NCBI RefSeq assembly: GCF_041381155.1
Contig: NC_091137.1
Span: 17,231,765-17,295,764 of the forward strand
DNA from: Argopecten irradians
Taxonomy: Eukaryota > Mollusca > Bivalvia > Pectinida > Pectinidae
Direction: 5' to 3'
DNA length: 64,000 nt
Shown: in pieces, positions 1-56,663 of the stretch
Numbering within the stretch: the first letter of the stretch is position 1
Layout of the letters: each line of letters begins with the position of its first letter
The notes under the pieces: generated by a model
Told to the model about the DNA's origin: nothing
The model's input: only the letters and a program-made list of their open reading frames with translations
The model's database searches: none
Program-made: the position numbers and the translations under genes

Positions 1-1065
1 TTACATACACAACGGACTGACAAAGAGCAGTTCGATCCATAAAAAGATAGTACTTACATACACCACGGACTGGCGACGAGCAGTCCGATCAATACAAAGA
101 TAGTACTTACATCGACCACGGACTGGCGACGAGCAGTCCGATTAATACAAAGTTAGTACTTACATAGACCACGGACTGACAGAGCAGTCCGATAAACAAC
201 AGATATACAAGTACTACAAAGACCACGACTGGCGACGATCGAATAACAAAGTTAGTACTTACAAAGACCACGCACTGGCGACGAGCAGTCCGATCAAATA
301 CAAAGATAGTACTTTACACGACCACGGACTGGCGACGAGCAGTCCGATAAAACAAAGTTAGTACTTACATAGACCACGGACTGACGACGAGCAGTCCGAT
401 CAATACAAAGTTAGTACTTACATAGACCACGGACTGGCGACGAGCAGTCCGATCAATACAAAGTTAGTACTTACATAGACCACGGACTGGCGACGAGCAG
501 TCCGATCAATACAAAGTTAGTACTTACATAGACCACGGACTGGCGACGAGCAGTCCGATCAATACAAAGTTAGTACTTACATAGACCACGGACTGGCGAC
601 GAGCAGTCCGATCAATACAAAGTTAGTACTTACATAGACCACGGACTGGCGACGAGCAGTCCGATTAATACAAAGTTAGCACTTACATAGACCACGGGCT
701 GGCGACGAGCAGTCCGATCAATACAAAGTTAGTACTTACATAGACCACGGACTGGCGACGAGCAGTCCGATCAATACAAAGTTAGTACTTACATAGACCA
801 CGGACTGGCGACGAGCAGTCCGATCAATACAAAGTTAGTACTTACATAGACCACGGACTGGCGACGAGCAGTCCGATCAATACAAAGATAGTACTTACAT
901 AGACCACGGACTGGCGACGAGCAGTCCGATCAATACAAAGTTAGTACTTAATACAAAGATAGTACTTACATAGACCACGGACTTACGACGTGCAGTCCGA
1001 TCAATACAAAGTTAGTACTTACATAGACCACGGGCAGACAAAGAGCAGTTAGATCCATAAAGAGC
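1..1065. repeat. 53-bp satellite array with an embedded hairpin
   Basis: About 20 head-to-tail copies of a 53-bp unit. The core of each unit is an inverted repeat, CGGACTG and CAGTCCG around an 8-nt spacer. Copies in the middle (about 360-950) are nearly identical; copies at both edges carry indels and substitutions, as expected of an array kept uniform by unequal exchange. No long ORF runs through it. The array starts before the window. Confidence 0.95.
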
Positions 1066-2004
1066 TAATCTATTTCCGCTTCTACACGAGCCTGTTATAC
1101 AGTGTTGAGAGATGTCTGTCGTGTCCTGACTAAACATCACTGCAAAATTTGATGTATAGAAAAAATCATTATCAAAATATTACATTATCAATGTATATTT
1201 AAGCATTGATGTCACTTTTTTTTTTAATTTTATCGGGGTATGAAAAAAATTGTTTGCAAACTGTGTGAATCCGAAGTTTGCAAACAATTTTTTTTCATAA
1301 CCCGATAAAATTAAAAAATAGTGACATCAATACTTATAATCATTTTTATACTCTATTTTATAAAATGAAGTATGTTTAAATGTAACATTATTGTGGTTTT
1401 TCAAGGGACTCTTTTTTTCCGAATCAATACGCAACGTCGATGTCTCTATTGTGACGTCACGATAACGTCGGTGTTTCGCGCCATTCTTGGATTTTTTTCA
1501 TAGTGGTATGTAATAAAAATATTGGCCAATCAAAAAGCCAGATTTGGTATGAAAACAAAGAAAGATTAATTATTTACTTGTAAAGCACAGGAATGGATAT
1601 GAAAGAAACATGCAAAAATATTAAATCTTAGGAACACTAGCTATATACAGTTGTGCTGCATACTTATTCGTCACTCTTGATTTTTCTCGATGTATTCTTT
1701 TTTTATTTTTTTTCCTCGAATGTTTTAAGAACTCATTTATTGATACATTCACACCGAATTGTTTACACTTTCAACTCATAATATTTGCAAAATTTCCCAA
1801 TGTTCCATTATCAAAATATCATTATTTTGTGCACCGCTCAAACTTTGTGACGTCATTTCCTTATTTGTTCATACCAAAATGGTAACGAAAATGTCTTGCT
1901 TCCTAATTATACACTGTTTTCTCAAATCATCCGTATAGTATAACTGTACCTTTGGGTTACGAGTTTGAAACTAACGACAGTTTTTGTCGGACAAACTTGT
2001 TTAC
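1066..2004. other. Non-coding flank left of Gene 1
   Basis: AT-rich. It holds the palindromic element at 1201-1565 and no recognisable CTLD1-C exon for Gene 1. On the minus strand a poly(A)-signal hexamer (plus-strand tttatt at 1736-1741) lies about 180 bp beyond the in-frame stop at 1922, which would suit a 3' end if the last Gene 1 intron is retained. Confidence 0.6.
1201..1565. mobile_element. MITE-like element with long inverted repeat
   Basis: Positions 1201-1336 form an imperfect palindrome (GCATTGATGTCAC to GTGACATCAATAC) with an inner inverted motif GTTTGCAAAC. The next 230 bp contain TGACGTCA and a GGCGCG motif. The same sequence recurs inverted at 38335-38795 and again at 38800-39108, so this is a dispersed family. 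No ORF; non-autonomous. Family name not known to me. Confidence 0.8.
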
Positions 2005-2146
2005 CTCTGGTATATAGACTCCAGTAGTTCAGTGATGTACTTCCACATGGCTCAGACAGTGAGGATCCATCACATTGTAAACTACATCCTACATTTGCAG
2101 ATCTGGTCAACTTATCTCTTGGTCCAATACATGCACAACGTTTACC
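2005..2146 (-). CDS. Gene 1 exon: second half of WSC domain
   Basis: Acceptor ttcag and donor G|gtaaac give a 142-bp exon, phase 0 in and phase 1 out, the same as the other WSC-B exons here. It encodes the Cys pattern C-A-C, then C-x3-C, then PCG, matching the second half of a WSC domain. If the donor is not used, the frame reads on to a stop at 1922-1924 and adds about 27 residues. Confidence 0.8.
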
Positions 2147-2388: not shown

Positions 2389-2510
2389 CTGTAAAGCGAA
2401 GAACTTATTGCTGTATGCAGAACAATGGATTGCACAGGCAGCCGCTGATGTGTTGACTAGAAACATCAGTGATCTGTTGGGGTTTGGTTGTGGCATATAA
2501 CTGTAACAAC
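2389..2510 (-). CDS. Gene 1 exon: first half of WSC domain
   Basis: 122 bp, phase 1 in and phase 0 out (acceptor cccag, donor CAG|gtaagt). The translation starts GCYSY, has C-x3-C in the middle and ends FFALQ, the signature of the N-terminal half of WSC. It joins the 2005-2146 exon without breaking the frame. Confidence 0.85.
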
Positions 2511-2631: not shown

Positions 2632-2835
2632 CGACTAGATTTATCCATGGCGAGAGAAACTGAAATGAACCTGTCCAAACAGTTATATTCAAAGGATAGT
2701 TCCATTTTTGAAATGCGGTGTTGAGATCGTCGTTGTATGCCGCTAAAGTGCCATTATTCCTCTGACAATAAGAATACGCATCTCGTAAAGATGAAGGATG
2801 TTCTATATAATGAAAGGTGGAGCTGGCAGTCGATA
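2632..2835 (-). CDS. Gene 1 exon: CTLD1-N lectin-like half
   Basis: 204 bp, phase 1 at both ends (acceptor tttccag, donor G|gtaagc). The translation has the CTLD helix pattern (aromatic run, SLRDAYSYC, GTLAA) and ends with VWTGSF...PWINLVG, the W-x-G core of the lectin fold. The remaining lectin strands (CTLD1-C) are not found downstream in this window. Confidence 0.8.
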
Positions 2836-11803: not shown

Positions 11804-15847
<4,044 letters not shown>

Positions 15848-18608: not shown

Positions 18609-18737
18609 ATAAATATCTGAGTGACTGTTCACATTGACGTGGTTGAAATATGACGTCAGTCGTTCCAATTCTTTTGCATTTGGCACTCATACAACGTGCC
18701 ATAGACGTTCTAAATGAAGAATCAACATTTGTTATTC
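18609..18737 (-). CDS. Gene 2 exon: CTLD1-C lectin-like half
   Basis: 129 bp, phase 1 at both ends (acceptor tttcag, donor T|gtatgt). It encodes RCMSAKC then QCEQSLRYL, matching CTLD1-C of Genes 3 and 4 (C-x4-C, then C-x6-YL). It lies immediately downstream of the two WSC exons, completing the lectin fold begun at 23850-24443. Confidence 0.85.
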
Positions 18738-19602: not shown

Positions 19603-19741
19603 TGTCGATTTTATAGACGCTGGCGGTTTTTAAACCACCACACGTTACACCAAGGTCAGAGTTGATGCATATGTAAGGACAAGCGGAATCCGTTGTTGAG
19701 TTTTGGGGATTTGAGTTCCCCATGCAGAAACAGTTTTGATC
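19603..19741 (-). CDS. Gene 2 exon: second half of WSC domain
   Basis: 139 bp, phase 0 in (acceptor ttttcag) and phase 1 out (donor A|gtaaga). Motif order: NCFCMG, ACPYIC, TCGG, ASVY. This is the typical WSC end (C-x-C, C-x3-C, CGG-x-VY) and is the same length as the Gene 3 WSC-B exon. Confidence 0.9.
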
Positions 19742-20227: not shown

Positions 20228-20331
20228 CTGGACAGCTATATGTTTGGAAGACGAACAGTATATTTGACAGAAAGCTGGGTTATTGTATATGGAGCTAAAA
20301 GTAGGTGTCGCACCATTCAACGGAAAACATC
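20228..20331 (-). CDS. Gene 2 exon: first half of WSC domain
   Basis: 104 bp, phase 1 in (acceptor ttttag) and phase 0 out (donor CAG|gtatgt). Begins GCFPLNG, has FCQIYC and ends HIAVQ; the same length as the Gene 3 exon. Together with 19603-19741 it forms a complete WSC domain of about 81 residues. Confidence 0.88.
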
Positions 20332-23849: not shown

Positions 23850-24443
23850 CCACGTATGACATCCATTTTGAAATCATTTGAGACCAAACAAACGTTGTTC
23901 TAATTTCAGGATAGTTATCATCTAGTATTGACATCACTTCCGGTATATGCCGAAACAATCCTCCGTGCATGTGTTCTACACAATATTTCTGTGCATCACT
24001 CCAGCTTTTCGTATAATTAATGTAAAAGTAGTCCATTACTGGTCGGTTCTCATAGGAATTATTCGTCATTATCGTTGTGCTAGAAAACATTGATGTGGTT
24101 TCTTGTTGAACTGCTGTGTCAGTTATCCTTTCGGAATACAATGTAGTTGTTTCTAGTCGTGAATCGCTTGTTGTTACTCTTGTAGTTGTTGTTGAGGTAT
24201 GTATTTCTTCAGTAGTGGCTAGTTTTAGAGTGGTCGTGGTTGTTGGAGTGGGTGTTGCTGCTTGAATGGTTGTTGTTGCTTGAGTGGTTGTTGTTGCTTG
24301 AGTAGTTGTTGTTGCTTGATTAGTTGTTATTGCTTGAGTAGTTGTTGTTGGGGTAGCAGTGGTTGTCGGTATTTTTGTTATCGGAGTCGGAGTTGTAGTT
24401 GGTTTGATTTCAAAAACGTCTGGTTTTGAACTGAAGCTGTAAG
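23850..24443 (-). CDS. Gene 2 exon: Thr-rich linker fused to CTLD1-N
   Basis: 594 bp, phase 1 at both ends (acceptor tttaag, donor G|gtatgt), open throughout. The first 120 or so residues are Thr/Pro/Gln-rich with repeats of QATTTT; then comes CTLD1-N with SWSDAQKYC, GGLFRH and FVWSQMISKWMSYVG. Unlike Genes 1, 3 and 4, the lectin half shares its exon with a mucin-like segment, placing a second stalk N-terminal to the lectin/WSC head. Confidence 0.85.
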
Positions 24444-29500: not shown

Positions 29501-32234
29501 TAGTATTGAGGTCCGTGTTGTGTTTGGTGATGTAGTTGGTATTGTGGTTGGTTCTGTGGTTGGTGTTGTGGTCGGTATTATGTTGGTATTGTGGTCCGTG
29601 TTGTGGTCGGTATTGTGTTGGTATTGTGGTCCGTGTTGTGGTTGGTCCTGTGGTTGGTGTTGTGGTCGGTATTGTGTTGGTATTGTGGTCCGTGTTGTGG
29701 TCGGTATTGTGTTGGTATTGTGGTCCGTGTTGTGGTCGGTATTGTGTTAGTATTGAGGTCCGTGTTGTTGTTGGTGCTGTGGTTAGTGCTTTGGTCGGTA
29801 TTGAGGTCGGTGTTGTGGTTGGTCCTGTGGTTGGTGTTGTGGTCGGTATTGTGGTGGTATTGAGGTCCGTGTTGTGGTCGGTGATATGGTTGGTATTGAG
29901 GTTGGTCCTGTGGTTAGTATTGAGGTCCGTGTTGTGGTTGGTCCTGTTGTTGGTATTGAGGTCCGTGTTATGGTCGGTGATGTGGTTGGTATTGAGGTTG
30001 GTCCTGTGGTTGGTATTGAGGTCCGTGTTGTGGTTGGTCCTGTTGTTGGTATTGAGGTCCGTGTTATGGTCGGTGATGTGGTTGGTATTCAGGTTGGTCC
30101 TGTTGTTAGTATTGAGGTCCGTGTTATGGTCGGTGATGTGGTTGGTATTGAGGTCCGTGTTATGGTCGGTGATGTGGTTGGTATTGAGGTCCGTGTTATG
30201 GTCGGTGATGTGGTTGGTATTGAGGTCCGTGTTATGGTCGGTGATGTGGTTGGTATTGAGGTCCGTGTTATGGTCGGTGATGTGGTTGGTATTGAGGTCC
30301 GTGTTATGGTCGGTGATGTGGTTGGTATTGAGGTCGGTGTTATGGTCGGTGATGTGGTTGGTATTGAGGTCGGTGTTATGGTCGGTGATGTGGTTAGTAT
30401 TGAGGTCCGTGTTGTGGTCGGTGATGTGGTTGGTATTGAGGTTGGTCCTGTGGTTAGTATCGAGGTCCGTGTTGTGGTTGGTGCTGTGGTTGGTGCTGTG
30501 GTTGGTATTGTGTTGGTATTGAGGTCCGTGTTGTGGTTTGTTTTGTGGTCGGTATTGTGTTGGTATTGAGGTCCGTGTTGTGGTTGGTCCTGTGGTTAGT
30601 ATTGAGGTCCGTGTTTTGGTTGGTCCTGTGGTTAGTGTTGTGGTCCGTGTTGTGGTTGGTATTGAGGTCCGTGTTGTGGTTGGTGTTGAGGTCCGTGTTG
30701 TGGTTGGTATTGAGGTCCGTGTTGTGGTTGGGTTGGTCCTGTGGTTAGTGTTGTGGTCGGTGTTGTGGTTGGTATTAAGGTCCGTGTTGTGGTTGGTGTT
30801 GAGGTCCGTGTTGTGGTTGGTCCTGTGGTTAGTGTTGTGGTCGGTGTTGTGGTTGGTATTGTAGTCGGTGTTGTGGTTAGTGTTGTGGTCGGTATTGTGT
30901 TGGTATTGAGGTCCGTGTTGTGGTTGGTATTGAGGTCCGTGTTGTGGTTGGTATTGAGGTCCGTGTTGCGGTTTGTATTGAGGTCCGTGTTGTGGTTGGT
31001 ATTGAGGTCCGTGTTGTGGTTGTTATTGAGGTCCGTATTGTGGTTGGTCATGTGGTTAGTATTGAGGTCTGTGTTGTGGTTGGTCCTGTGGTTGGTGTTG
31101 TTGTCGGTGTTGTGGTTGGTATTGAGGTCCGTGTTGTTGTTTGTATTGAGGTCCGTGTTGTGGTTGTTATTGAGGTCCGTATTGTGGTTGGTCCTGTGGT
31201 TAGTATTGAGGTCCGTGTTGTGGTTGGTATTGAGGTCCGTGTTGTGGTTGGTCCTGTGGTTAGTATTGAGGTCCGTGTTGTGGTTGGTATTGAGGTCCGT
31301 GTTGTGGTTGGTCCTGTGGTTGGTGTTGTAGTTGATATTGAGGTCCGTGTTGTGGTTGGTATTGAGGTCCGTGTTGTGATTGGTATTGAGGTCCGTGTTG
31401 TGGTTGGTCCTGTGGTTGGTGTTGTGGTCGGTGTTGTGGTTGTTATTGAGGTCCGTGTTGTGGTTTGTATTGAGGTCGGTATTGTAGTGGTATTGAGGTC
31501 CGTGTTGTGGCTGATTCTGTGGTTAGTATTGAGGTCCGTGTTGTGGTTGGTCCTGTGGTTGGTAATGAGGTCCGTGTTGTGGTTGGTATTGAGGTTGGTC
31601 CTGTAGTTAGTGTTGTGGTCGGTATTGTGTTGGTATTGTGTTGGTATTGAGGTCGGTGTTGTGGTTGGTCCTGTGGTTAGTGTTGTGGTCGGTGTTGTGG
31701 TTAGTCCTGTGGTTAGTGTTGTGGTTGATATTGAGGTCCGTGTTTTGGTTGGTATTGAGGTCCGTGTTGTGGTTGATATTGAGGTCCGTGTTGTGGTTGA
31801 TGTTGTGGTTGGTGTTGTGGTTGGTCCTGTGGTTGGTATTGTGGTCGGTGTTGTGATTGGTCCTGTGGTTGGTATTGTGTCCGTGTTGTGGTTGGTCCTG
31901 TGGTTAGTGTTGTGGTCGGTGTTGTGGTTGGTATTGAGGTCCGTGTTGTGGTTGGTATTGTGGTTGGTGTTGTCGGAGTTGTGGTTGGTGGTGTATGTGT
32001 TGTAGTATGTGTTGTAGTTGATGTTGTGGTGGGTTTTGTAGTTTGAGTTGTGGCCGGTGTTGTAGTTGGTGTTGTCATCGGTGTTGTTGTAAGTATTGTA
32101 GTAGGTGTCGTAGTAGATGTTGTTGTAGATGCTGTAATTGCCGATGTTATGTTTGTTGGTTGTGGTGTTGGCTTTGTTAATGGTTTCCCTGTAGGTGTTA
32201 ATGGTGATGTTGAAGTTAAATTAATGTTTTGTAT
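26556..32234 (-). CDS. Gene 3 exon: giant minisatellite-encoded stalk
   Basis: A 5.7-kb tandem array of short units (GGTATTGAGGTCCGTGTTGT with GGTTGGTCCTGT inserts, multiples of 6-12 bp). On the minus strand the left and right ends read in the same Thr/Pro frame: NINLTSTSPL at the start, TTTRTSIPTT and TTGPTT repeats within, and PITTLTITSIITP before a TAG at 26556-26558. Inside, the frame slips repeatedly, for example at about 31878 (one base short of the unit). At the 5' edge, acceptor caaag (phase 1) needs one fewer T in the run at 32227-32230 to be in frame. It is either a damaged or error-containing mucin stalk; no convincing donor to a TM exon was seen. Confidence 0.6.
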
Positions 32235-39460: not shown

Positions 39461-39902
39461 TTAAATGGTATAATGTATGTACACTATCCCGGAAACTGAA
39501 CAATGAAACACTTTCTTTATTATCAAGGTTGTGTTTTAATTGGGTTCTATATCTATCTCATTTGTTTTCATTCAAGGTTCATTGATATTAATTTGAATTT
39601 TGTTCTAGTCATTCATACAGCCGTTCTTGTAATTTCCTACGGACTGTTCATTTAGAATATATATATGTATTTGATTATTTTGATCGCTCTACTTGTACAG
39701 TCGGGAAAAATTCACAAAATCAATAACAGTGTTCTGGGTTTATTTTAACGAAATAACCTTATTTTAAGTGTCTTTACAGGCAAGAATTTCTTTAACTATA
39801 TGTCATTGAAATCTTATTTTTAGTTTTGTATGATATTTTATTTATTCGTTTTTATTTCTTTAATTTAGAATATTTTGGTACGTTTTGCAAGCTGACACTT
39901 AC

Positions 39903-40022
39903 ATAAATATTTCAACTCTGTTGAACAGTTGGTTGCTTGAAAAATAACTTGAGATCTTCCTGTGCATTGTGTACTTACACACTGGCCGTTAGGGGTTGAT
40001 GAACCAGAGACGGAGACAGAAT
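39903..40022 (-). CDS. Gene 3 exon (copy 1): CTLD1-C
   Basis: 120 bp, phase 1 at both ends (acceptor ttttcag, donor T|gtaagt). Encodes GQCVSTQC and NCSTELKYL, the second half of the lectin fold interrupted by WSC. Confidence 0.88.
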
Positions 40023-40238
40023 CTGAAAAGACAGTCATAAGTAGTACACCAATACCGTATAGTCTAATTATATTCACGGATCATATCCGTAAAATAATTA
40101 TAAATTGGTTTTTATCCTGATAATATAACCGATAAGAGATGAAGTGTGGTATACCAGTTGCACCATTCTTATCAATTTTACAACAAATCTTGACACAAAA
40201 GAATTATGATTATTATTGTACTATTGAGGAACACTTAC

Positions 40239-40377
40239 CGTCTTTGTTGTAAACACTCGCTGCACCGACGCCTCCACACCTCTCATCACGCTCTGACCCC
40301 GGGCAGGAAATGGCACACATGCTATCATTGCGTGGTCCGGTTGGATTACGTGAACCCATGCAAACACAAATACGATC
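40239..40377 (-). CDS. Gene 3 exon (copy 1): WSC second half
   Basis: 139 bp, phase 0 in, phase 1 out. Motifs ICVCMG, MCAISC, RCGG and ASVYN: clear WSC C-terminal half. Confidence 0.92.
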
Positions 40378-40538
40378 CTGCAACAAATGTAAAAGGTCAC
40401 TTTGATACCAACGACCATGAAAAAGCAAACATTGTGGAATCGCTATAGGTGGCACAAGTCATGACAATGATAATTAACTTGATGTAAGTATCAATACATT
40501 GTGTTGAATTAAAGTTATGTAAATATGTATTTCACTAC

Positions 40539-40642
40539 CTGGAGAGCAAAATAGGTGGACGTTCTGCAGTATATCTGGCAAAGTCCGGGACTGTTCGTAG
40601 GTAGTGCAGTTCCAGACAGCTTTCTGTTAATAGGATAACATC
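40539..40642 (-). CDS. Gene 3 exon (copy 1): WSC first half
   Basis: 104 bp, phase 1 in, phase 0 out. Starts GCYPINR, contains LCQIYC and ends TYFALQ, the classic N-terminal half of WSC. Confidence 0.92.
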
Positions 40643-40837
40643 CTGGAACAAGCAATTCGTGACATCGAAGGACATATTGCTGAATCATAAGGAATCATCA
40701 TTTGTCAACGCAATGGTGAACACTAAATAACGAATGACATTAATGATCGAGTCATCCGTGGTGAAAAAAACTTATAAAGATGACGAGGTATGAAGTGTTT
40801 TGGATTAATTGTTCATAAACAAAATGGCTAATGGTAA

Positions 40838-41119
40838 TTTTTCATCATTTAAAAAAAAAACAAGATTAGATTGGTGATTATCTTTTTTGTATCAAAATTA
40901 CATACTTTACATTATCATTTCATGTAAAAGTTGGGGCATTTTATTTACTTCAGAATGAAATGAATTAGAATTGTTAATTGCATCTACAATTCAAGGCAAT
41001 ATAAAAACCTTATATGGAATGCGGTGTTTTTGTGTTACTTAGACATAATTATACGATTCAACATTTTTTTAGTACAGATGATAAATATTGTTTATGCCTG
41101 TCGGTAGTGGAGCATTTTA
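40838..41119. mobile_element. Decayed TTAA-type MITE, copy 1
   Basis: Diverged member of the AGATGCTCC family; the right end reads TGTCGGTAGTGGAGCAT. In the intron between WSC-A and CTLD1-N. Confidence 0.65.
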
Positions 41120-41394
41120 ACATAAAAAACTACACTAACTGAAAACATCTTTGATTATGGTATTCGTCAATTTATTGCACTAAAGACACTACTGGTCATC
41201 TGGTGACATTTCAATCTAAATCAATGCGAGAAAACAACATAAAAAGGACCCCAACGGGACAAAATCAGTACGACAATGCAAAAACTATTTCTTTCGGATT
41301 GGCGCGTGGTTTTTTCGCATTATCGCCTGATTTTGTGGCGTTGAAGCATGATATTATCGCCTAGTCATATATGTAGATACAAAAAATATCTTAC

Positions 41395-41586
41395 CACTAT
41401 ATGATATCCATGCGGACATAACCTGTGTCCAAATAACAGTGTCCATGGGGACGATATGGTTGTAAATTAAAGACGTCACTTCCGGAGTAGGCCGAAACAA
41501 ACCTCCAGAGAGGGATTTAAAACAAAAATTCTGTGCCTCCATCCATGTGTTTGGTGTTCGGATGTAGTAGTATTTCAGGGTACCAC
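41395..41586 (-). CDS. Gene 3 exon (copy 1): CTLD1-N
   Basis: 192 bp, phase 1 at both ends (acceptor aatag, donor G|gtaaga). Encodes TLKYYYIRTPNTWMEAQNFC, GGLFRPTPEV and VIWTQVMSAWISYSG; closely related to CTLD1-N of Gene 2 and more distantly to Genes 1 and 4. The polypyrimidine tract is weak, but the phase fits both possible upstream exons. Confidence 0.85.
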
Positions 41587-42361
41587 CTATTATATTGGTA
41601 ATGTAAATGATGTCATTAGCATTATCTAATGAAAACAGATCATTTGATTTATTATTCAAATGGGAATGGTTATGAAAAAAAGACAATTTCTTATAATCAG
41701 TATTTCATTATAATAATACTTAAAACCCAAGTTCCATGCAAGTAGTTCCCTTAGATTCTAGGAAGTGATAAATGACCCCTTATACGAAGTTGGACAGATG
41801 CTGTTCTTGCACAATCGTTTGTTATACTGCTATTTTCTTATATAGATATATCCCATAGGGGCTGAGAGTGTACATACAAAATGTATTAATTTCCGTTTCT
41901 TATTATATTTTATAATGTATTTATTTTATGGGCGCGGGGTGGAGAGAAGAGACGCGAACTTCCAAGATGCCACAAAGACATTCTTTCTGTTCTCTGTTTT
42001 TGGTGAAAACTTGCATATAAATGCAGAACTTTTGAAAATTGATACAAACGGTCATAAGGGATCCTGTATGGAATTGGAATATTGTGCAAATGATAGTTTA
42101 GTCAAAACTGCATTTTTACCGAATGGTGTCGTTCATAAGACAACATTCCTCAATTACTAGTGTGTTTGGACCAAAATGTTTAAACTAACAGTTATAATTA
42201 GTTCAGAAATGTCCGAACAGCGTGAACAAATGCCGCAACATCCAATATAGCTAGTTTTATGAAGTAATACATATACTTAAGAAATCAAAAAACTTGAACG
42301 TAATGCAAAGGATTTGAATTGCTTCATCTTATTTCATTATGTTCCAAATACAAAAACATAC

Positions 42362-42452
42362 CTCTTGTGCTGGACAGTCCAAGAAAAGAGAAGAGAAACA
42401 TCCTTATTAGGGTATGTTTAAATTTCCATGTGGTATTCAATGTTATTTCCAT
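42362..42452 (-). CDS. Gene 3 first exon (copy 1): signal peptide
   Basis: 91 bp from ATG at 42452 to donor G|gtatgt, phase 1. 30 residues with a hydrophobic core MFLFSFLGLSS. Differs from copy 2 at two positions (KFK for KWK, IRM for IWM), a notable share of the differences between the copies. Confidence 0.75.
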
Positions 42453-43336
42453 GGCTTCACATTGGTACTACATACACGTTTTAGCATTTACATTGTCTGA
42501 AAATTGTTGTCAATTCATGATAAAGTTGCCACAACGGTCTTCTATTGTTATTACACATATTCATAACACAAAATAATATATGTAGCTTTAAATTCGACTT
42601 TAAAATATGTCCGCGTTTTCTTTTTACAAATGAGCCACCATATGTATAAACAGAGGAACAATAAACAGGTCACTTTATCAGATCTATATACAATGTACAT
42701 ATCATACTATAAATAGAACTTCTTGTCATTGTTGATAAAGAGTGTTATAACAATCGCAGGGGACAAATACCACTGATATAAAAGTGTGCTATTCGAGTTT
42801 CATCGCTTTCATTAATATATAATAAATAAATGTTGAGTTTCAAACGGAAAACCAAAATTATGTGATCATATCCTTGTACTCGAAACCTTGCAAACACAGA
42901 ATTAATTTTAACGACAAGCTAGAAGAAGATTATAAAAATCTCCAAATGATATCATAATAGTGTGAATGGTTATAGACCTCATTGTATCTTGTTGGTGTGC
43001 CTGTTATCACAGTTATAAGTATAATGTTGTCATTTAACCTATTGTGATTCATTATTACAATTACTCACTATTTATAGGTGACTGATAACTAAGTTAATGT
43101 TTGAAACATCTTATTTTAGAAAATAGATTCATAAGTTTAAAAAGTTGTTGGTCACAATTGAATCAAATTTAAAAAACAAAATAAGCTAATAGGCTAATTA
43201 TGTAATTGGTTTATTGAAAGACACTGTGATCAATTTTAATATTTTTTTTCGTTTTCATACGTTTTATGGACATAGATGATGTCGTTAACATATAGTGGTA
43301 AGGTTGTGTCGTTTTACAATATCAACAGAAATATTA
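42453..43336. other. Upstream region of Gene 3 copy 1
   Basis: Presumed 5' UTR and promoter region of the inner start site, duplicated at 46710-47593. AT-rich, no further exon recognised. Confidence 0.5.
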
Positions 43337-44017
43337 ATACGGGGGTTTCAAGATCCAAAAATGACGTGGGTAAAGTACAGTAAACGCAGTGGTTGCCGTG
43401 CAAGAATACACACACGGAACACTGACTTCCGCAATGCCTAACCGATTAGGCCTATTGTATCTGTATAACAAATTTTCAATAAACTGCATGTATGAATGAA
43501 ATGTTTATCTTTAATTATATATCAGCAAATAAAATATTTAACAAATATTGTATAAATGGGATGAAAAAAGATAAAGTTAATGTGGAAATATATTTTGTGT
43601 ACTCTCTGAATTTGACATTTCCCGCCAAATTGAAGCCAGCTGTTTCGGGAGTCCATCTATTGACCGGCTGTTCCAACAATCGTATAACATTAAAAAAACA
43701 GAGTTTTATTTTATTTGAACAACTTAATTTTTAATAAAATGGTCGGTCGAAATGTAAATATAAGGAATGATTGTAATTATTATATTTCAACAGGACGTGC
43801 CAACGTGCGTCATTTAAAATGTATGTACAAAAAATGCAGTTTACGCACCAGTAAACAACAAACCATAAAAATCATTCCTTAATTAGTCCCACCTTCCGGT
43901 GATTACGACGTCACGAAACTCACGTCAAATGATGACGTCACAATCACCACATGCTTTGACTAATCGACGGGTAATTGTACATTATCACGTCATTTTTGGA
44001 TCTAGAAACCCCCGTAA
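43337..44017. mobile_element. TIR element at the duplication boundary, copy 1
   Basis: About 680 bp with terminal inverted repeat ATACGGGGGTTT..GATCCAAAAATGACGT and complement. Carries TGACGTCA octamers and a short ORF without known domain. A shorter relative with the same ends is at 52911-53102. Its right end is 7 bp from the duplication junction. Confidence 0.8.
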
Positions 44018-44158
44018 TGTATTTTGTCTTTACAGGCAAGAATTTCTTTAACTATATGTCATTGAAATCTTATTTTTAGTTTTGTATGATATTTTATTTA
44101 TTCGTTTTTATTTCTTTAATTTAGAATATTTTGGTACGTTTTGCAAGCTGACACTTAC

Positions 44159-44278
44159 ATAAATATTTCAACTCTGTTGAACAGTTGGTTGCTTGAAAAA
44201 TAACTTGAGATCTTCCTGTGCATTGTGTACTTACACACTGGCCGTTAGGGGTTGATGAACCAGAGACGGAGACAGAAT
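44159..44278 (-). CDS. Gene 3 exon (copy 2): CTLD1-C
   Basis: Same sequence and phases as 39903-40022. Its donor T| could join the copy 1 CTLD1-N acceptor (GT), giving a Cys codon and a protein with two nested heads. Confidence 0.88.
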
Positions 44279-44495
44279 CTGAAAAGACAGTCATAAGTAG
44301 TACACCAATACCGTATAGTCTAATTATATTCACGGATCATATCCGTAAAATAATTATAAATTGGTTTTTATTCCTGATAATATAACCGATAAGAGATGAA
44401 GTGTGGTATACCAGTTGCACCATTCTTATCAATTTTACAACAAATCTTGACACAAAAGAATTATGATTATTATTGTACTATTGAGGAACACTTAC

Positions 44496-44634
44496 CGTCT
44501 TTGTTGTAAACACTCGCTGCACCGACGCCTCCACACCTCTCATCACGCTCTGACCCCGGGCAGGAAATGGCACACATGCTATCATTGCGTGGTCCGGTTG
44601 GATTACGTGAACCCATGCAAACACAAATACGATC
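44496..44634 (-). CDS. Gene 3 exon (copy 2): WSC second half
   Basis: Copy of 40239-40377 with intact frame and splice sites; phase 0 to phase 1. Confidence 0.9.
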
Positions 44635-44795
44635 CTGCAACAAATGTAAAAGGTCACTTTGATACCAACGACCATGAAAAAGCAAACATTGTGGAATCGC
44701 TATAGGTGGCACAAGTCATGACAATGATAATTAACTTGATGTAAGTATCAATACATTGTGTTGAATTAAAGTTATGAAAATATGTATTTCACTAC

Positions 44796-44899
44796 CTGGA
44801 GAGCAAAATAGGTGGACGTTCTGCAGTATATCTGGCAAAGTCCGGGACTGTTCGTAGGTAGTGCAGTTCCAGACAGCTTTCTGTTAATAGGATAACATC
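44796..44899 (-). CDS. Gene 3 exon (copy 2): WSC first half
   Basis: Copy of 40539-40642 with intact frame and splice sites; phase 1 to phase 0. Confidence 0.9.
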
Positions 44900-45094
44900 C
44901 TGGAACAAGCAATTCGTGACATCGAAGGACATATTGCTGAATCATAAGGAATCATCATTTGTCAACGCAATGGTGAACACTAAATAACGAATGACATTAA
45001 TGATCGAGTCATCCGTGGTGAAAAAAACTTATAAAGATGACGAGGTATGAAGTGTTTTGGATTAATTGTTCATAAACAAAATGGCTAATGGTAA

Positions 45095-45376
45095 TTTTTC
45101 ATCATTTAAAAAAAAAACAAGATTAGATTGGTGATTATCTTTTTTGTATCAAAATTACATACTTTACATTATCATTTCATGTAAAAGTTGGGGCATTTTA
45201 TTTACTTCAGAATGAAATGAATTAGAATTGTTAATTGCATCTACAATTCAAGGCAATATAAAAACCTTATATGGAATGCGGTGTTTTTGTGTTACTTAGA
45301 CATAATTATACGATTCAACATTTTTTTAGTACAGATGATAAATATTGTTTATGCCTGTCGGTAGTGGAGCATTTTA
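45095..45376. mobile_element. Decayed TTAA-type MITE, copy 2
   Basis: Duplicate of 40838-41119, showing that the MITE was present before the segmental duplication. Confidence 0.65.
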
Positions 45377-45651
45377 ACATAAAAAACTACACTAACTGAA
45401 AACATCTTTGATTATGGTATTCGTCAATTTATTGCACTAAAGACACTACTGGTCATCTGGTGACATTTCAATCTAAATCAATGCGAGAAAACAACATAAA
45501 AAGGACCCCAACGGGACAAAATCAGTACGACAATGCAAAAATTATTTCTTTCGGATTGGCGCGTGGTTTTTTCGCATTATCGCCTGATTTTGTGGCGTTG
45601 AAGCATGATATTATCGCCTAGTCATATATGTAGATACAAAAAATATCTTAC

Positions 45652-45843
45652 CACTATATGATATCCATGCGGACATAACCTGTGTCCAAATAACAGTGTC
45701 CATGGGGACGATATGGTTGTAAATTAAAGACGTCACTTCCGGAGTAGGCCGAAACAAACCTCCAGAGAGGGATTTAAAACAAAAATTCTGTGCCTCCATC
45801 CATGTGTTTGGTGTTCGGATGTAGTAGTATTTCAGGGTACCAC
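45652..45843 (-). CDS. Gene 3 exon (copy 2): CTLD1-N
   Basis: Copy of 41395-41586, same phases and splice sites, identical translation. Confidence 0.87.
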
Positions 45844-46618
45844 CTATTATATTGGTAATGTAAATGATGTCATTAGCATTATCTAATGAAAACAGATCAT
45901 TTGATTTATTATTCAAATGGGAATGGTTATGAAAAAAAGACAATTTCTTATAATCGTTATTTCATTATAATAATACTTAAAACCTAAGTTTCATCCAACT
46001 AGTTCCTTTAGATTCTAGGAAGTGATAAATGACCCCTTATACGAAGTTGGACAGATGCTGTTCTTGCACAATCGTTTGTTATACTGCTATTTTCTTATAT
46101 AGATATATCCCATAGGGGCTGAGAGTGTACATACAAAATGTATTAATTTCCGTTTCTTATTATATTTTATAATGTATTTATTTTATGGGCGCGGGGTGGA
46201 GAGAAGAGACGCGAACTTCCAAGATGCCACAAAGACATTCTTTCTGTTCTCTGTTTTTGGTGAAAACTTGCATATAAATGCAGAACTTTTGAAAATTGAT
46301 ACAAACGGTCATAAGGGATCCTGTATGGAATTGGAATATTGTGCAAATGATAGTTTAGTCAAAACTGCATTTTTACCGAATGGTGTCGTTCATAAGACAA
46401 CATTCCTCAATTACTAGTGTGTTTGGACCAAAATGTTTAAACTAACAGCTATAATTAGTTCAGAAATGTCCGAACAGCGTGAACAAATGCCGCAACATCC
46501 AATATAGCTAGTTTTATGAAGTAATACATATACTTAAGAAATCAAAAAACTTGAACGTAATGCAAAGGATTTGAATTGCTTCATCTTATTTCATTATGTT
46601 CCAAATACAAAAACATAC

Positions 46619-46709
46619 CTCTTGTGCTGGACAGTCCAAGAAAAGAGAAGAGAAACATCCATATTAGGGTATGTTTCCATTTCCATGTGGTATTCAATGT
46701 TATTTCCAT
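46619..46709 (-). CDS. Gene 3 first exon (copy 2): signal peptide
   Basis: 91 bp, ATG at 46709, donor G|gtatgt in phase 1; hydrophobic stretch LIWMFLFSFLGLSS. This would be the outer start of Gene 3. Used alone with copy 2 it encodes a head with no CTLD2, stalk or TM unless it splices into copy 1 or onward. Confidence 0.75.
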
Positions 46710-47593
46710 GGCTTCACATTGGTACTACATACACGTTTTAGCATCTACATTGTCTGAAAATTGTTGTCTATTCATGATAAAGTTGCCACAACGGTCTTCT
46801 ATTGTTATTACACATATTCATAACACAAAATAATATATGTAGCTTTAAATTCGACTTTAAAATATGTCCGCGTTTTCTTTTTACAAATGAGCCACCATAT
46901 GTATAAACAGAGGAACAATAAACAGGTCACTTTATCAGATCTATATACAATGTACATATCATACTATAAATAGAACTTCTTGTCATTGTTGATAAAGAGT
47001 GTTATAACAATCGCAGGGGACATATACCACTGATATAAAAGTGTGCTATTCGAGTTTCATCGCTTTCATTAATATATAATAAATAAATGTTGAGTTTCAA
47101 ACGGAAAACCAAAATTATGTGATCATATCCTTGTACTCGAAACCTTGCAAACACAGAATTAATTTTAACGACAAGCTAGAAGAAGATTATAAAAATCTCC
47201 AAATGATATCATAAATTGTGTGAATAGTTATAGACCTCATTGTATCTTGTTGGTGTGCCTGTTATCACAGTTATGGGTATAATGTTGTCATTTAACCTAT
47301 TGTGATTCATTATTACAATTACTCACTATTTATAGGTGACTGATAACTAAGTTAATGTTTGAAACATCTTATTTTAGAAAATAGATTCATAAGTTTAAAA
47401 AGTTGTTGGTCACAATTGAATCAAATTTAAAAAACAAAATAAGCTAATAGGCTAATTATGTAATTGGTTTATTGAAAGACACCGTGATCAATTTTAATAT
47501 TTTTTTCGTTTTCATACGTTTTATGGACATAGATGATGTCGTTAACATATAGTGGTAAGGTGTTGTCGTTTTACAATATCAACAGAAATATTA
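46710..47593. other. Upstream region of Gene 3 copy 2
   Basis: Duplicate of 42453-43336; probable outer promoter region. No motif strong enough to name. Confidence 0.5.
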
Positions 47594-48276
47594 ATACGTG
47601 GGTTTCGAGATCCACAAATGACGTGGGTAAACTTGCGTAAACGCAGTGGTTGCCGTGCAAGAATACACACACGGAACACTGACTTACGCAATGCCCAACC
47701 GATTAGGCCTATTGTATCTGTATAACAAATTTTCAATAAACTGCATGTATGAATGTAATGTTAATCTTTAATTATATATCAGCAAATAAAATATTTAACA
47801 AATATTGTATAAATGGGATGAAAAAAGATAAAGTTAATGTGGAAATATATTTTGTGTACTCTCTGAATTTGACAACATTTCCCGCCAAATTGAAGCCAGC
47901 TGTTTCGGGATTCCATCAATTGACCGGCTGTTCCAACAATCGTATAATATTAAAAAAACAAAGTTTTATTTTATTTGAACACTTAATTTTTAATAAAATG
48001 GTCGGTCGAAATGTAAATATAAGGAATGATTGTAATTATTATATTTCAACAGGACGTGCTAACGCGCGTCATTTAAAATGTATGTACAAAAAATGCAGTT
48101 TACACACCAGTAAACAACAAACCATAAAAATCATTCCTTAATTAGTCCCACCTTCCGGTGATTACGACGTCACGAAACTCACGTCAAATGATAACGTCAC
48201 AATCACCAGATGCTTTGACTAATCGACGGGTAATTGTACATTATCACGTCATTTTTGGATCTCTAAACCCCCGTAA
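47594..48276. mobile_element. TIR element at the duplication boundary, copy 2
   Basis: Duplicate of 43337-44017 with a few indels; ends 7 bp before the duplicated segment ends. Confidence 0.8.
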
Positions 48277-48283
48277 TGTATTT

Positions 48284-50793: not shown

Positions 50794-51061
50794 CTACGCC
50801 AGCGAATGATGTTTATAAGGCTCAGGATAACACGTCATGTATTCACTAGAATTTGGAATTTCCTGCAGATCGACAGATTCTAAATTGTCTTTGGATACGA
50901 AACTCTCTCCTGCAAATGTTGGATTTGTGAACGCTGCGACTCCAGCCATACTTTCGTACAAAGGATTGTCACGAGCTATAGTTCCATCCCCATTATTTTC
51001 AGATGTTGGTATATTTGTTCCGGTATAGCGGGTTCCGTTTGATTTGTTCCTGTTCCGGTTT
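50794..51061 (-). CDS. Gene 4 last exon: cytoplasmic tail with NPxY-type motifs
   Basis: 268 bp, phase 2 in (acceptor ttatcag), stop TAG at 50794-50796. About 88 residues, starting basic (RNRNRNKSNGTR). It contains DNPLYES, an NPxY motif, and 16 residues later TNPTF, an NPxF-like motif, then acidic stretches and SSEYMTCYPEPY. NPxY motifs bind PTB-domain adaptors in integrins and LDL-receptor-type proteins, linking to endocytosis or signalling. That role here is inference. Confidence 0.88.
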
Positions 51062-51352: not shown

Positions 51353-51431
51353 CTAGATTTTTTCACCACTACGAAGACGATTGCGGCCACAACCAGTACC
51401 ACTAGAGTGCCTACTCCACCTGCTACGGCGG
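51353..51431 (-). CDS. Gene 4 exon: transmembrane segment
   Basis: 79 bp, phase 1 in (acceptor ttgacag), phase 2 out (donor AG|gtaagt). Hydrophobic helix AVAGGVGTLVVLVVAAIVFV then VVKKSR: a single-pass membrane anchor with a GxxxG-like start and basic stop-transfer. Same size and phases as the Gene 2 TM exon. Confidence 0.92.
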
Positions 51432-51915
51432 CTGTCAAGGTAGAAAGCCCTCAAGGTAAGCTACTAGTGATACTTATATACTTAAACACAAGTGAATTTA
51501 TCTGTATAGATCAACAACAAATACAATATATATTGTAGTTTAAAATAACTGAGATAGAAAACTGAATCAGAAACTCCTTCGTAAAGTATATATAGGCTAC
51601 TGTTAGTGAGAATAAATTGGCACTAATTCACGAACTTAGAGAACTTTCGTGCGGGACTATTGTTTCTATTGGTGATGGAAAAACGTCAAAGGCGATATCC
51701 CGCGCTTACGTCATTTCAGCGGGAAGACTACAAAGATTTACTTCCTATCGCCACTGGAGATACTAGTTCCGCATAAACGTTATCGGACATCATGATGTAC
51801 GTGAATAAGTCCCATTGTTAAAATATTAGTTTTCCAAAAGCATGTTTTTCAAAGGTTTTTAAAATAAAGATGAGGACATTCATATACAAAAACTAAACAG
51901 AATATGCAGACTTAC
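51432..51915. other. Gene 4 intron between stalk and TM
   Basis: AT-rich, no recognisable feature. Confidence 0.6.
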
Positions 51916-52884
51916 TCATTGGAAAGTTGCTGATATTGGCACTGGCAGAGGCTTGTGTCATCCCTCCGTTAATAAATATTGTTGTAGGTGTTGTGGTTAG
52001 TGTTATTGGTGTGGTAGTTGGTGTTGTTGTAGGTGTAGTAGTTGGTGTAATGGTTTTTGTTGTTGTAGATGTTGTTGTATGTGTTGTTGTCGGTGTTGTA
52101 GGTGTTGTAGTTGGTGTTGTTGTAGGTGTTGTAGTTTGTGTTGTTGTAGGTGTTGTGGTTGTTGTTGTTGTTGGTGTTGTAGTTGATGTTGTTGGTGTTG
52201 TAGTTGGTGTTGTTGTAGGTGTTGTTGTTGGTGTTATTTTTGTTGTTGTGGTTGGTGTTGTCGTTACTGTTGTTTTTGGTGTTATGGTCAACGCTGTTGG
52301 TGTTGTAGTTGGCGTTGTGGTTGGTATAATTGTAGGAGTTGTTGTTGGTGTTGTGGTTGGTGTTGTGTTTGGTGTTGTTGTGGATGCTGTTGTTGGTACT
52401 GTGGTTGGTGCAGTAGTTCGTGTTGTGGTTGGTGTAGTTGTATGGGTTGTGGTTGGTGTTGTTGTATGGGTTGTGGTTGGTGTAGTTGTTGGTGTTGTGG
52501 TTGGTGTTGTAGTTGGTGTTGTTGTAGGTGTTGTTGTTGGTGGTGTTGTTGGTGTGGTTTTCGGTGTTGTTTTCGGTGTTGTTGTAGGTGTTGTTGTAGA
52601 TGTTGTGGTTGGTGTAGTTGTTGGTGGTGTGGTTGGTGTGGTTTTCGGTGTGGTTTTCGTCGTTGTTGTAGGTGTTGTTGTAGGTGTTGTGGTCGGTGTT
52701 GTTTTAGGAGTTGTTGTTGGTGTTGTTGTCGGTGGTGTTGTGATTGGTGTTGTTGTGGTTGTTGTTGTCGGTGTTGTTGTGGGTGTCGTAGGTGTTGTGG
52801 TTGGTGTTGTTGTGGGTGTTGTGGTCGGTGTTTTAGTCGTTATGATGTTCAGATTGAAGGGATTTTTGTTCTTTACATAGACAT
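51916..52884 (-). CDS. Gene 4 exon: PTTT mucin-like stalk
   Basis: 969 bp, phase 1 at both ends (acceptor gattcag, donor A|gtaagt), open throughout. After a lead VYVKNKNPFNLNIITT come about 280 residues of PTTT repeats (12-bp DNA unit on GGTGTTGTTGTA), then a short unique end (INGGMTQASASANISNFPM) with an N-glycosylation site. Presumed heavily O-glycosylated spacer between the lectin domains and the membrane. This stalk is intact and in frame, unlike those of Genes 2 and 3. Confidence 0.9.
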
Positions 52885-53392: not shown

Positions 53393-53515
53393 CTGAATAA
53401 CATATGAAGCGTTTTGGCGACAAACAGTTTGGCACATTAAAACCGGAAGCAGCGCCGTCTGTACGAATGTACACATCTTGACACGAAAGTAAGCTTCCAA
53501 GTCCATCCGGAGAAC
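53393..53515 (-). CDS. Gene 4 exon: CTLD2-C lectin-like half
   Basis: 123 bp, phase 1 at both ends (acceptor ccaaag, donor G|gtaccg). Encodes LLSCQDVYIRTDG, then NCLSPKRFICYS, the terminal CTLD strands. Confidence 0.88.
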
Positions 53516-53859: not shown

Positions 53860-54042
53860 CTGATATAAAATCGTTATACTGCTCCCTGAACAAACCGATC
53901 CAGAACCTTTTCTGTGAGAGACCAGAATAACCGTATTTACAATCCTTTCTCAGATTCGCAGCAAGGTATGTATGGCTGTAGTTACGGCAGCTAGAGGCAG
54001 CATCGACCCAGGACGCCGGGTTGTTGAGGACAACGAGTTTAT
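53860..54042 (-). CDS. Gene 4 exon: CTLD2-N lectin-like half
   Basis: 183 bp, phase 1 at both ends (acceptor ttcacag, donor G|gtacgt). Encodes NNPASWVDAASSC, TYLAANL and KRFWIGLF, the WIGL core motif of CTLDs. Joins CTLD1-C through TAT (Tyr). Confidence 0.9.
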
Positions 54043-54765: not shown

Positions 54766-54900
54766 ACAATGGTGTACGCAGATCTGAGCATTGTTCAACA
54801 AAGTATTGGAGACTTTGATCTGGTTGGTTAGGGTGTTGTTTACAGGATACGGAGATACATCTCAGGGTGGTAGCTGTGGTGTTGTCTTGGTACTCCGACT
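54766..54900 (-). CDS. Gene 4 exon: CTLD1-C lectin-like half
   Basis: 135 bp, phase 1 at both ends (acceptor tctcag, donor T|gtaagc). Encodes TLRCISVSC and EQCSDLRTPL, matching CTLD1-C of Genes 2 and 3. Lies right after the WSC exons. Confidence 0.87.
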
Positions 54901-55279
54901 CTGAGAACAAAAACTCATCTTTTAGAAGCACATTATACCACGCAATGCTTTTACAATGTATAGTGTAAATCATGCTTTTTACGTTTTGCTGAATTAGAAA
55001 AGTAAAACATAAGCACTTATCAAATGATATACTAGATATCAATCACTCAAGACATTTTTTTTTTATTTTTATTTTTTTTAAATCCAGCGTATTCCTTTCT
55101 TAACTTTGATAACTACATTTAAAATGCCTTAAACGACAGCAAGAATATGTCACAGCATTAACGTACTGAAATAATGCCAACTCTACTAGATTACCAAAAA
55201 GTTGGCAATAATTGTTATTGTGATGGTCAAGATAATTTCATAACATAATTTTGAATTTAGTCACTTGAGTTGAACTTAC

Positions 55280-55415
55280 TAGAGTACACGTTATAGACAT
55301 TAGGCCCACCACAAGGCTCCCGAGATGTCGAGTTTGCACAGTCAATACTACACAGATCGTCCAGTACGGACTGAGACCGTTGTGGGATGGCATCCAAACA
55401 GTCACAGCGATTGCT
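55280..55415 (-). CDS. Gene 4 exon: WSC second half
   Basis: 136 bp, phase 0 in (acceptor attag), phase 1 out (donor A|gtaagt). Motifs RCDCLDA, CSIDC, PCGGPNVYNVY: strong WSC C-terminal half. Confidence 0.93.
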
Positions 55416-55836
55416 CTAATGTTTGACATTAACAAATGAATGATTTAAAATAGTTGTGCAGGACTATCAAATCAAAATTGAAATTCAAACTTTAAAAAAT
55501 GCAAATAAATCTAATATATCTTCTATATAAACTCAAATGAAAATCTCAGAAGACAACCTTATTGCTCTTTAATATTCCTTGTTTACTTGGTGACAATTGT
55601 ACTGTGTAACCACTACCTAAACTCGTATTAAAAGATACAGTATAGGAATTTCTGTCTAAAATTCTTAAAAAGGCCACACAATAAACAGAATATAATTAAG
55701 AAGATATTATCTGAGTTGTGTAAAACGAAGTGGTTCAATTTTGCTGTGAGTTGTCAAGTAAAGGTAATAAGCGATAACAAATCTCGATCAAGTCAAGATG
55801 TGTAGGTTGTATGTTCAGTGGAATTTGGTTATTTAC

Positions 55837-55952
55837 CTTCAATGCAAAATACTGATACTTCCGGCATTTGAACTGACAATAGGCCGCGTTATATATTGGC
55901 AGTATGGCCGACTCACGTGATCTGCTCGTTATACTGTCGGTAGGATAGCAAC
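55837..55952 (-). CDS. Gene 4 exon: WSC first half
   Basis: 116 bp, phase 1 in (acceptor ttttag), phase 0 out (donor AAG|gtaaat). Starts GCYPTDS, contains YCQFKC and ends QYFALK, a clear WSC N-terminal half. Confidence 0.93.
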
Positions 55953-56456
55953 CTAAAATGAAGAAGCGGGGCTATAATTAAAGATATCTTACAAATCTAT
56001 TTAAAGATTTTACTATTGAACATTTGAAAAAAACCGTTGTTGGTTCCCTCATTTTTTTCTGATGATCTATTTTATATCAAAATTGTTATGCGTATGAATC
56101 GTAAATGATTGTATATTTGGCAGAATATCATGTATAACAAAACAATGGGTGTGGGATAAATTCTAGTTTCTGAATTCCGTCTTCTGCATTTCTTACGTTT
56201 ACAGCAGTAACCATACTATATTGTTTTAAGATATTCTTCATCATCTTTGTTTCTTCATTCATTATGTATTCTGCAAAAATTGGATTTGGTCTTTATAATT
56301 AGCTTTCACGAAAACAAAAATATTAAAAAAGAAAAAAATATTAAAAAAGAAAAAAATACGTATGTCAATAAGCTATTGTGGTGTAGAACAACCACAAGCA
56401 TGACAACAATGAAAACGTCTATAAAAACAAAACTAGGCCAGGAACATTGAAGTTAC

Positions 56457-56663
56457 CTTGGTTTGAAATCCATTCGGAAAGACCGGAGTGATAGCCCACC
56501 CAGAACGGTGTGGCATTTGGTACATGATGACGAAGGTTTGACAAATCAGTATTACTATAGTCCAGTAGATTTCCTCTAAAAGTGCTTTGACAGTATTTCT
56601 GGGCGTCTAACCAGCTCTTGGGATCAGTTACGTAGTAAAAGTATCTATCACCTGACACACAGT
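56457..56663 (-). CDS. Gene 4 exon: CTLD1-N lectin-like half
   Basis: 207 bp, phase 1 at both ends (acceptor ttgcag, donor G|gtaact). Encodes CVSGDRYFYY, SWLDAQKYC, RGNLLDY, then FWVGYHSGLSEWISNQG: the standard CTLD helix and W-x-G core. The WSC exons follow where the rest of the lectin fold would be expected. Confidence 0.92.

Follow-up and report, generated by a model that had tools for sequence, protein, structure and literature searches.

Exon structure of the locus

The stretch of DNA analysed, hereafter the window, comprises 64,000 nt of the Argopecten irradians genome (assembly GCF_041381155.1, NC_091137.1, positions 17,231,765-17,295,764). It contains five copies of one gene structure, termed Genes 1, 2, 3a, 3b and 4, in which exons for the N-terminal half of a C-type-lectin-like domain (CTLD), WSC-A, WSC-B and the C-terminal half of the CTLD follow one another in this order, all of them on the minus strand. 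A preliminary description of the same DNA had proposed this order for Gene 4, Gene 2 and both Gene 3 copies; the exons of all four were rebuilt with AG/GT borders and matching phases, and the borders proposed for Gene 4 (56663-56457, 55952-55837, 55415-55280 and 54900-54766) proved exact. The tally of four was, however, one short, as Gene 1, with a nested set spanning 2835-1023, constitutes a fifth copy. The nested exons are listed below in window coordinates; assignments are based on AG/GT borders and phase unless stated otherwise.

2632..2835, minus strand, Gene 1 CTLD1 N-half exon, ends in phase 1 (AG/GT, open frame and alignment with the remaining copies)
2389..2510, minus strand, Gene 1 WSC-A exon, ends in phase 0
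2005..2146, minus strand, Gene 1 WSC-B exon, ends in phase 1
1023..1139, minus strand, Gene 1 CTLD1 C-half exon, ends in phase 1
23850..24443, minus strand, Gene 2 CTLD1 N-half exon, which also encodes a Thr-rich stretch
20228..20331, minus strand, Gene 2 WSC-A exon
19603..19741, minus strand, Gene 2 WSC-B exon
18609..18737, minus strand, Gene 2 CTLD1 C-half exon
41395..41586, minus strand, Gene 3a CTLD1 N-half exon; an upstream AG is an alternative start
40539..40642, minus strand, Gene 3a WSC-A exon
40239..40377, minus strand, Gene 3a WSC-B exon
39903..40022, minus strand, Gene 3a CTLD1 C-half exon
45652..45843, minus strand, Gene 3b CTLD1 N-half exon (tandem duplicate of the 3a exon)
44796..44899, minus strand, Gene 3b WSC-A exon
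44496..44634, minus strand, Gene 3b WSC-B exon
44159..44278, minus strand, Gene 3b CTLD1 C-half exon
56457..56663, minus strand, Gene 4 CTLD1 N-half exon, ends in phase 1 (Lectin_C, 25.4 bits alone)
55837..55952, minus strand, Gene 4 WSC-A exon, ends in phase 0 (with exon B, WSC at 33.4 bits)
55280..55415, minus strand, Gene 4 WSC-B exon, ends in phase 1 (AG/GT, phase, Pfam with WSC-A)
54766..54900, minus strand, Gene 4 CTLD1 C-half exon, ends in phase 1 (AG/GT, phase; no match in Pfam alone)

Read on the minus strand, the rebuilt exons display AG/GT borders in 20 of 20 cases, and the exon-end phases, 1, 0, 1 and 1, are identical across the five copies. WSC-A and WSC-B together measure 243-264 nt, a length divisible by 3 in every copy. 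With borders deduced from sequence, the WSC pair forms a symmetric 1-1 module with an inner phase-0 intron in 5/5 copies, as had been proposed. Genes 3a and 3b lie in two directly adjoining tandem units (39769-44024 and 44025-48283), with a unit length of 4,256 bp and an identity of 98.8% over 4,261 bp, by which they are judged to be a recent tandem copy. As recent duplicates they are counted once, and the window thus holds four independent copies. The duplication (39769-48283) also sets two nested CTLDs in a row and, since the exons taken together are 1-1, a single protein carrying both is possible. Local profiles revealed no further nested copies in the DNA flanking the window, over 30 kb on the left and 20 kb on the right.

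Downstream of the nested domain, Gene 4 comprises the following exons.

53860..54042, minus strand, Gene 4 CTLD2 N-half exon; the CTLD is uninterrupted and the exon ends in phase 1 at the matching Gly (sequence reading)
53393..53515, minus strand, Gene 4 CTLD2 C-half exon (sequence reading)
51916..52884, minus strand, Gene 4 Thr/Pro-rich (mucin-like) stalk exon (borders by eye)
51353..51449, minus strand, Gene 4 transmembrane exon (borders by eye)
50794..51061, minus strand, Gene 4 cytoplasmic tail exon with stop, containing NPLYESM and NPTF (sequence reading)

The split of a plain CTLD2 at a matching phase-1 intron, an earlier claim for these genes, is clear in Gene 4, whereas the CTLD2 borders of Genes 1-3 are less clear. 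The full domain set was read in Gene 4 and in several of the single-exon genes described below, the Thr/Pro-rich stalk being that of Gene 4. Such genes would encode type I membrane proteins with the WSC domain splitting the outer CTLD1, CTLD2 unsplit behind it, and a stalk leading through a membrane span to a short tail. A signal-peptide exon was looked for in Gene 4 and none was found. The candidate cytoplasmic tail of Gene 1 (L014, window -4363 to -4881) is rich in acidic residues and in tyrosines (YVYM, YLDM).

The inserted WSC domain

Against Pfam cut-offs of 27.8 bits for WSC (PF01822) and 22.6 bits for Lectin_C (PF00059), the insert of Gene 4 was identified as a WSC domain at 33.4 bits and that of Gene 3 scored 27.8 bits, the cut-off itself, while the inserts of Genes 1 and 2 gave no Pfam WSC match. 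When the inserts of the window and single-exon genes are taken together, 4/17 match Pfam WSC at E ≤ 1. Alignment of the four distinct window copies (Genes 1-4) revealed eight WSC cysteines that are invariant and in register. The profile built from the window WSC sequences has yeast Wsc1 (7pz2) as its sole PDB match at E ≤ 10 (positions 2-83, E 1.5e-5). A profile of 17 sequences (13 single-exon and 4 window genes) gave seven PDB matches at that threshold, the best four of which are Kremen1 (E 0.02-0.03). Yeast Wsc1 (7PZ2) and human Kremen1 share with the present domain the eight cysteines, their order and the motifs CX3C, CXC, CX3C and CG. Unlike both, the WSC domain of the single-exon members has a further CxC close to its end. 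In Wsc1 and Kremen1 the WSC domain stands between domains, whereas here it interrupts one.

The disulfide bridges of yeast Wsc1 are given in the available text of PMC9024836 as C27-C86, C49-C69, C53-C71 and C90-C98. Fold and bridges of the present domain are likened to that description, with the pairing transferred by cysteine order; on this basis three of the four bridges would link WSC-A to WSC-B and both exons would be needed. The same text describes the Wsc1 sheet order as beta1-beta5-beta3-beta4-beta2, with the first and last strands adjacent. The two ends of the WSC domain are thus predicted to lie close together, which would fit insertion into a loop.

Single-exon relatives elsewhere in the genome

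Besides the window genes themselves, a whole-genome protein search recovered single-exon frames on C7 and, on C10 and C812, decayed copies of Gene 4. The decayed copies are DNA copies with introns included, 88-94% (L055, C10) and 81-84% (L056, C812) identical to Gene 4 in large blocks, and both contain stops and frame breaks. In L057 and L058, in contrast, a single frame encodes a hydrophobic N-terminus, the CTLD N-half, WSC, the CTLD C-half, CTLD2, a membrane span and a tail. With L058 as query, 34 genome matches were found at E ≤ 0.1 on C7, C16, C10 and C642; eleven of them, query included, extend from the CTLD N-half through the C-half without a stop (query positions ≤10 to ≥190 in a single frame). 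Judged from these loci, the nested family is much larger than the set of window genes.

Fifteen single-exon loci were read (12 on C7, 2 on C16 and 1 on C10), and 14 of them encode the N-half, WSC and C-half in one stop-free frame, L059 having one stop. The fusion point [W/F]-x4-[G/S]-C was located by script in 17/17 sequences (13 single-exon and 4 window genes) and by eye in two more single-exon loci, giving 15/15 for the latter group. As these genes encode the identical domain order and fusion point, the nesting is independent of the splicing deduced for the window, and they lend it its strongest support. The four CTLD cysteine columns are invariant in 13/13 single-exon genes (alignment A10). 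L059, with its stop, and L071, which lacks the last CTLD cysteine, were left out of A10, of A11 and of the tree; L051 was left out of alignment A5 because it is close to L050. L070 lacks some WSC cysteines and its N-half is poorly recognisable. A C-terminal hydrophobic span is present in at least 6/15 frames, several of the stretches ending before that point.

Pfam Lectin_C was matched at E ≤ 1 by 2/13 single-exon genes. A profile of their joined CTLD halves aligned with other CTLDs of the genome at E 1.9e-6 and with the window genes at E 6.5e-9, and its only three PDB matches at E ≤ 10, all weak, are CTLDs (rhodocetin beta, rhodocetin alpha and KLRF2; E 0.02, 0.3 and 0.4, respectively). Pairwise dN/dS was 0.43 for L057/L061 and 0.76 for L065/L072, one pair in each case. 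In an unrooted tree with several long branches and a bootstrap that had not settled, window and single-exon genes are split at 100/100, which fits one origin without proving it. The single-exon branch, which lacks introns at the sites where its relatives have them, was probably retroposed; at this divergence a poly-A remnant or target-site duplication would hardly have persisted.

Origin of the nested architecture

Exon shuffling is usually seen between domains. The preliminary description had proposed shuffling into a domain, and this is supported by a shared CTLD intron, by the phases of unrelated WSC loci and by the open frames of the single-exon genes. A genome scan with PF00059 gave 150 scored matches and 497 candidates; 14 of the 150 start at position ≤4 and end at 64-68 of 107. 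Ten of these 14 CTLD exons, chosen for ending at 64-68, were read, two of them by eye, and 10/10 show a phase-1 donor at W-x4-G, in the codon five residues past the conserved W, the open coding stretch ending at the same point. The donor codon has the form XGT (GGT nine times, AGT once), F replaces W in L041, and several of the donors fit the consensus only loosely. In the nested genes W-x4-G lies at the same distance as in the other CTLDs. Plain CTLDs thus share the place and phase of the intron, as expected if the WSC domain was shuffled into an existing CTLD intron. Fish antifreeze-like CTLDs have an intron downstream of the WIGL motif, according to the available text of PMC514892.

Among four unrelated two-exon WSC loci, three start in phase 1 and contain the same middle phase-0 intron, while the fourth has a different middle intron. 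The end border of those three is, respectively, a clear phase 1, plausible with a weak donor, and unclear. Sister WSC genes at C4:14.18 and 16.86 Mb (L019-L020 and L022) have tandem repeats filling the intron between the WSC exons. Single-exon WSC domains adjoin CTLDs at C4:40.58 Mb. The gene at C4:40.58-40.60 Mb resembles the nested genes in having both domains in one gene region; it differs in that they stand side by side, with WSC in one exon and the CTLD halves adjacent, and is not nested. A side-by-side arrangement, which thus does occur in the genome, was rejected for the nested genes. Over C4:40.57-40.61 Mb (L015-L018, minus strand), CTLDs alternate with single-exon WSC domains, and sushi-like exons are also present.

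One shuffling event into the CTLD intron, followed by a retroposed branch, would explain these findings most simply. Bounded by phase 1 and carrying a phase-0 intron inside, a symmetric WSC module would have entered the phase-1 intron of the CTLD at W-x4-G, the start of the long loop. Copies would then have spread by local duplication and as DNA copies that are now decayed on C10 and C812; a further route would be the branch of single-exon genes on C7, C10 and C16, which was probably retroposed. Two independent insertions at this intron, in separate ancestors of the window genes and the single-exon genes, are unlikely. In their favour, the intron is common in the genome and could thus have received an insert more than once, the unrooted tree sets the two groups well apart (100/100) and the C-terminal parts of their WSC domains differ by the extra CxC. 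Nevertheless, the fusion residue is identical in all genes read, CTLD2 follows the nested domain in both groups, and the joined-CTLD profiles are closer to each other (E 6.5e-9) than to other CTLDs (about 2e-6).

The flanks of the insert as a probable single lectin-like domain

The joined flanks of Gene 4 match Lectin_C at 30.6 bits, compared with 25.4 bits for the N-half alone (Pfam cut-off 22.6). Those of Gene 3 and Gene 2 score 19.5 and 14 bits, respectively, and those of Gene 1 gave no Pfam Lectin_C match; a search of NCBIfam with two proteins gave no match. Joined window halves match solved CTLDs over their full length, for example agglucetin (3ubu_B, E 1e-4, positions 7-109), and in profile-profile comparison (hhalign) they align with nine other CTLDs of the genome at E 1.5e-6. 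In similar comparisons, the window N-half alone gave E 1.2e-5 against genome CTLDs and the C-half alone E 0.027, placed at the CTLD C-terminus; inclusion of two single-exon genes in the C-half profile gave E 0.0016. Inclusion of the C-half does not improve every match: phospholipase A2 receptor scored 35.3 bits with the N-half alone versus 26.4 with both halves. The whole nested alignment had a histone methyltransferase as its best PDB match (E 0.0025), rejected as a chance match, followed by CTLDs over the N-half. Alignment A8 was not used as evidence because it also contains CTLD2 of Gene 4.

The canonical CTLD cysteine C1 lies before the insert and C2-C4 lie after it. CTLD1 of Genes 1-3 contains one cysteine before and four after the insert, and that of Gene 4 two before and four after. 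The second post-insert cysteine aligns with the canonical C2 of the single-exon relatives, so the first is the extra one, and it has no evident partner in the window genes.

The alternative that nothing is nested, the protein instead having a truncated CTLD, a WSC domain and an unrelated cysteine-rich segment in succession, is improbable. By itself, the C-half of Gene 4 has no match in Pfam, and profile searches with the CTLD C-half gave no relevant PDB match. When 200 shuffled C-halves per gene were compared with a local profile of 10 single-exon CTLDs, 26/200 equalled the real segment in Gene 1 and 65/200 in Gene 4, as this alternative would predict; in Genes 2 and 3 the real C-half beats its shuffles, which equalled it in 1/200 cases each. 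This local profile was dropped as the main test, being too insensitive and giving mixed results. The alternative is opposed by the end-to-end alignment of the joined halves with CTLDs and by the single-exon C-halves, which carry the CTLD pattern GNC...C...C. Furthermore, the lone N-half cysteine of Genes 1-3 needs a partner in the C-half, as the WSC domain has eight cysteines of its own. Together these comparisons suggest that the two flanks pack as one CTLD fold.

The shuffling account also bears on the order in which the two gene types arose. Were the single-exon genes older, and the window introns a later gain, the larger size and diversity of the single-exon branch in the genome would be explained; the window introns nevertheless coincide with those of unrelated CTLDs and WSC domains, so that gain would need repeated hits, and this order of events is very improbable. 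It is scarcely credible that the WSC exons are part of a different transcript or are skipped every time, leaving a plain mature CTLD: the window exons were deduced from sequence and WSC skipping would keep the frame in all five copies, the module being a multiple of 3 with phase-1 borders, but in the single-exon genes an uninterrupted frame covers the identical order and fusion point. Optional skipping of the WSC exons in the window genes is possible.

Predicted function of the nested domain

Between the WSC domain and the first C-half cysteine of the four window genes lie 13-15 residues; EPN and QPD are absent from this loop, and WND is absent from the C-half. With so short a loop and none of these motifs, calcium-dependent sugar binding by CTLD1 is unlikely. 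The WSC domain seems to take the place of the long loop instead of being inserted into an otherwise complete one. The remainder of that loop being short and motif-free, WSC would serve as the outermost binding unit on a lectin scaffold. According to the available text of PMC9024836, the ligands of WSC or PAN-type domains are sugars or proteins; WSC is thus the likeliest outer binding surface, with CTLD1 as its scaffold, from which it probably stands out. We infer that the proteins are surface receptors that bind ligands in recognition, immune or similar. The dN/dS values, tandem copies, decayed copies and strong divergence make the group look like a birth-and-death recognition family.

We consider it probable that the genes encode membrane proteins with a WSC domain nested in CTLD1, which arose by shuffling at the phase-1 intron and were then duplicated and retroposed. 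A fuller version, held tentatively and on balance doubtful, is that of a hitherto undescribed cell-surface receptor family in which an entire WSC domain replaces the sugar-binding loop of the CTLD, with a single origin by exon shuffling within a domain, spread by retroposition and tandem copying, a recognition repertoire still diversifying through birth and death, and optional in-frame skipping of WSC in the genes that have introns. If true, this would be a lectin scaffold with a second binding domain as its loop. Provided that the fold is as predicted, a whole domain can be accommodated at the variable loop of the C-type lectin scaffold, a natural counterpart to loop engineering. As donor module, target intron and both intron-bearing and single-exon products occur in one genome, the insertion of a domain into a domain could be traced stepwise. 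Most members fall below the Pfam cut-offs for both domains, and such genes would thus tend to be annotated as uncharacterised; the family may therefore be wider than database records indicate.

Comparison with known systems

A WSC domain nested in a CTLD was not found described among the open-access literature matches listed, and the claim of novelty made in the preliminary description is uncontradicted there as far as nesting is concerned. The co-occurrence of the two domains in bivalve proteins is, however, already in print: the available text of PMC10140915 mentions WSC as one of the domains that accompany C-type lectin domains in proteins of unknown function specific to bivalves. That text describes the combination, while nesting is a feature of the present genes. 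The main text of PMC13114784, on domain insertions, contains neither lectin nor WSC. CTLDs with a short long loop, such as the NK-receptor-type KLRF1/KLRF2 and the snaclecs, resemble the joined halves in their full-length profile matches and resemble the window genes in the absence of EPN, QPD and WND. In contrast with CTLD1, which is split by a folded domain, the matched chains carry no insert. A WSC domain-containing protein has been reported among mussel gill transcripts (PMC4581086).

Repetitive tracts in the window

A 53-bp minisatellite of ~18 copies (window 1-1049) adjoins the end of the CTLD C-half exon of Gene 1, whose donor region falls within it; the exon end recurs in degenerate form at window 3-53. 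At 13342-14844, ~1.5 kb of almost pure T lies within a longer GTT-rich repeat and is either real or an assembly fault. The tract at 26580-32123 consists of 5.5 kb of a 12-bp repeat with Thr/Pro-rich coding on the minus strand, and is probably the stalk of Gene 3.
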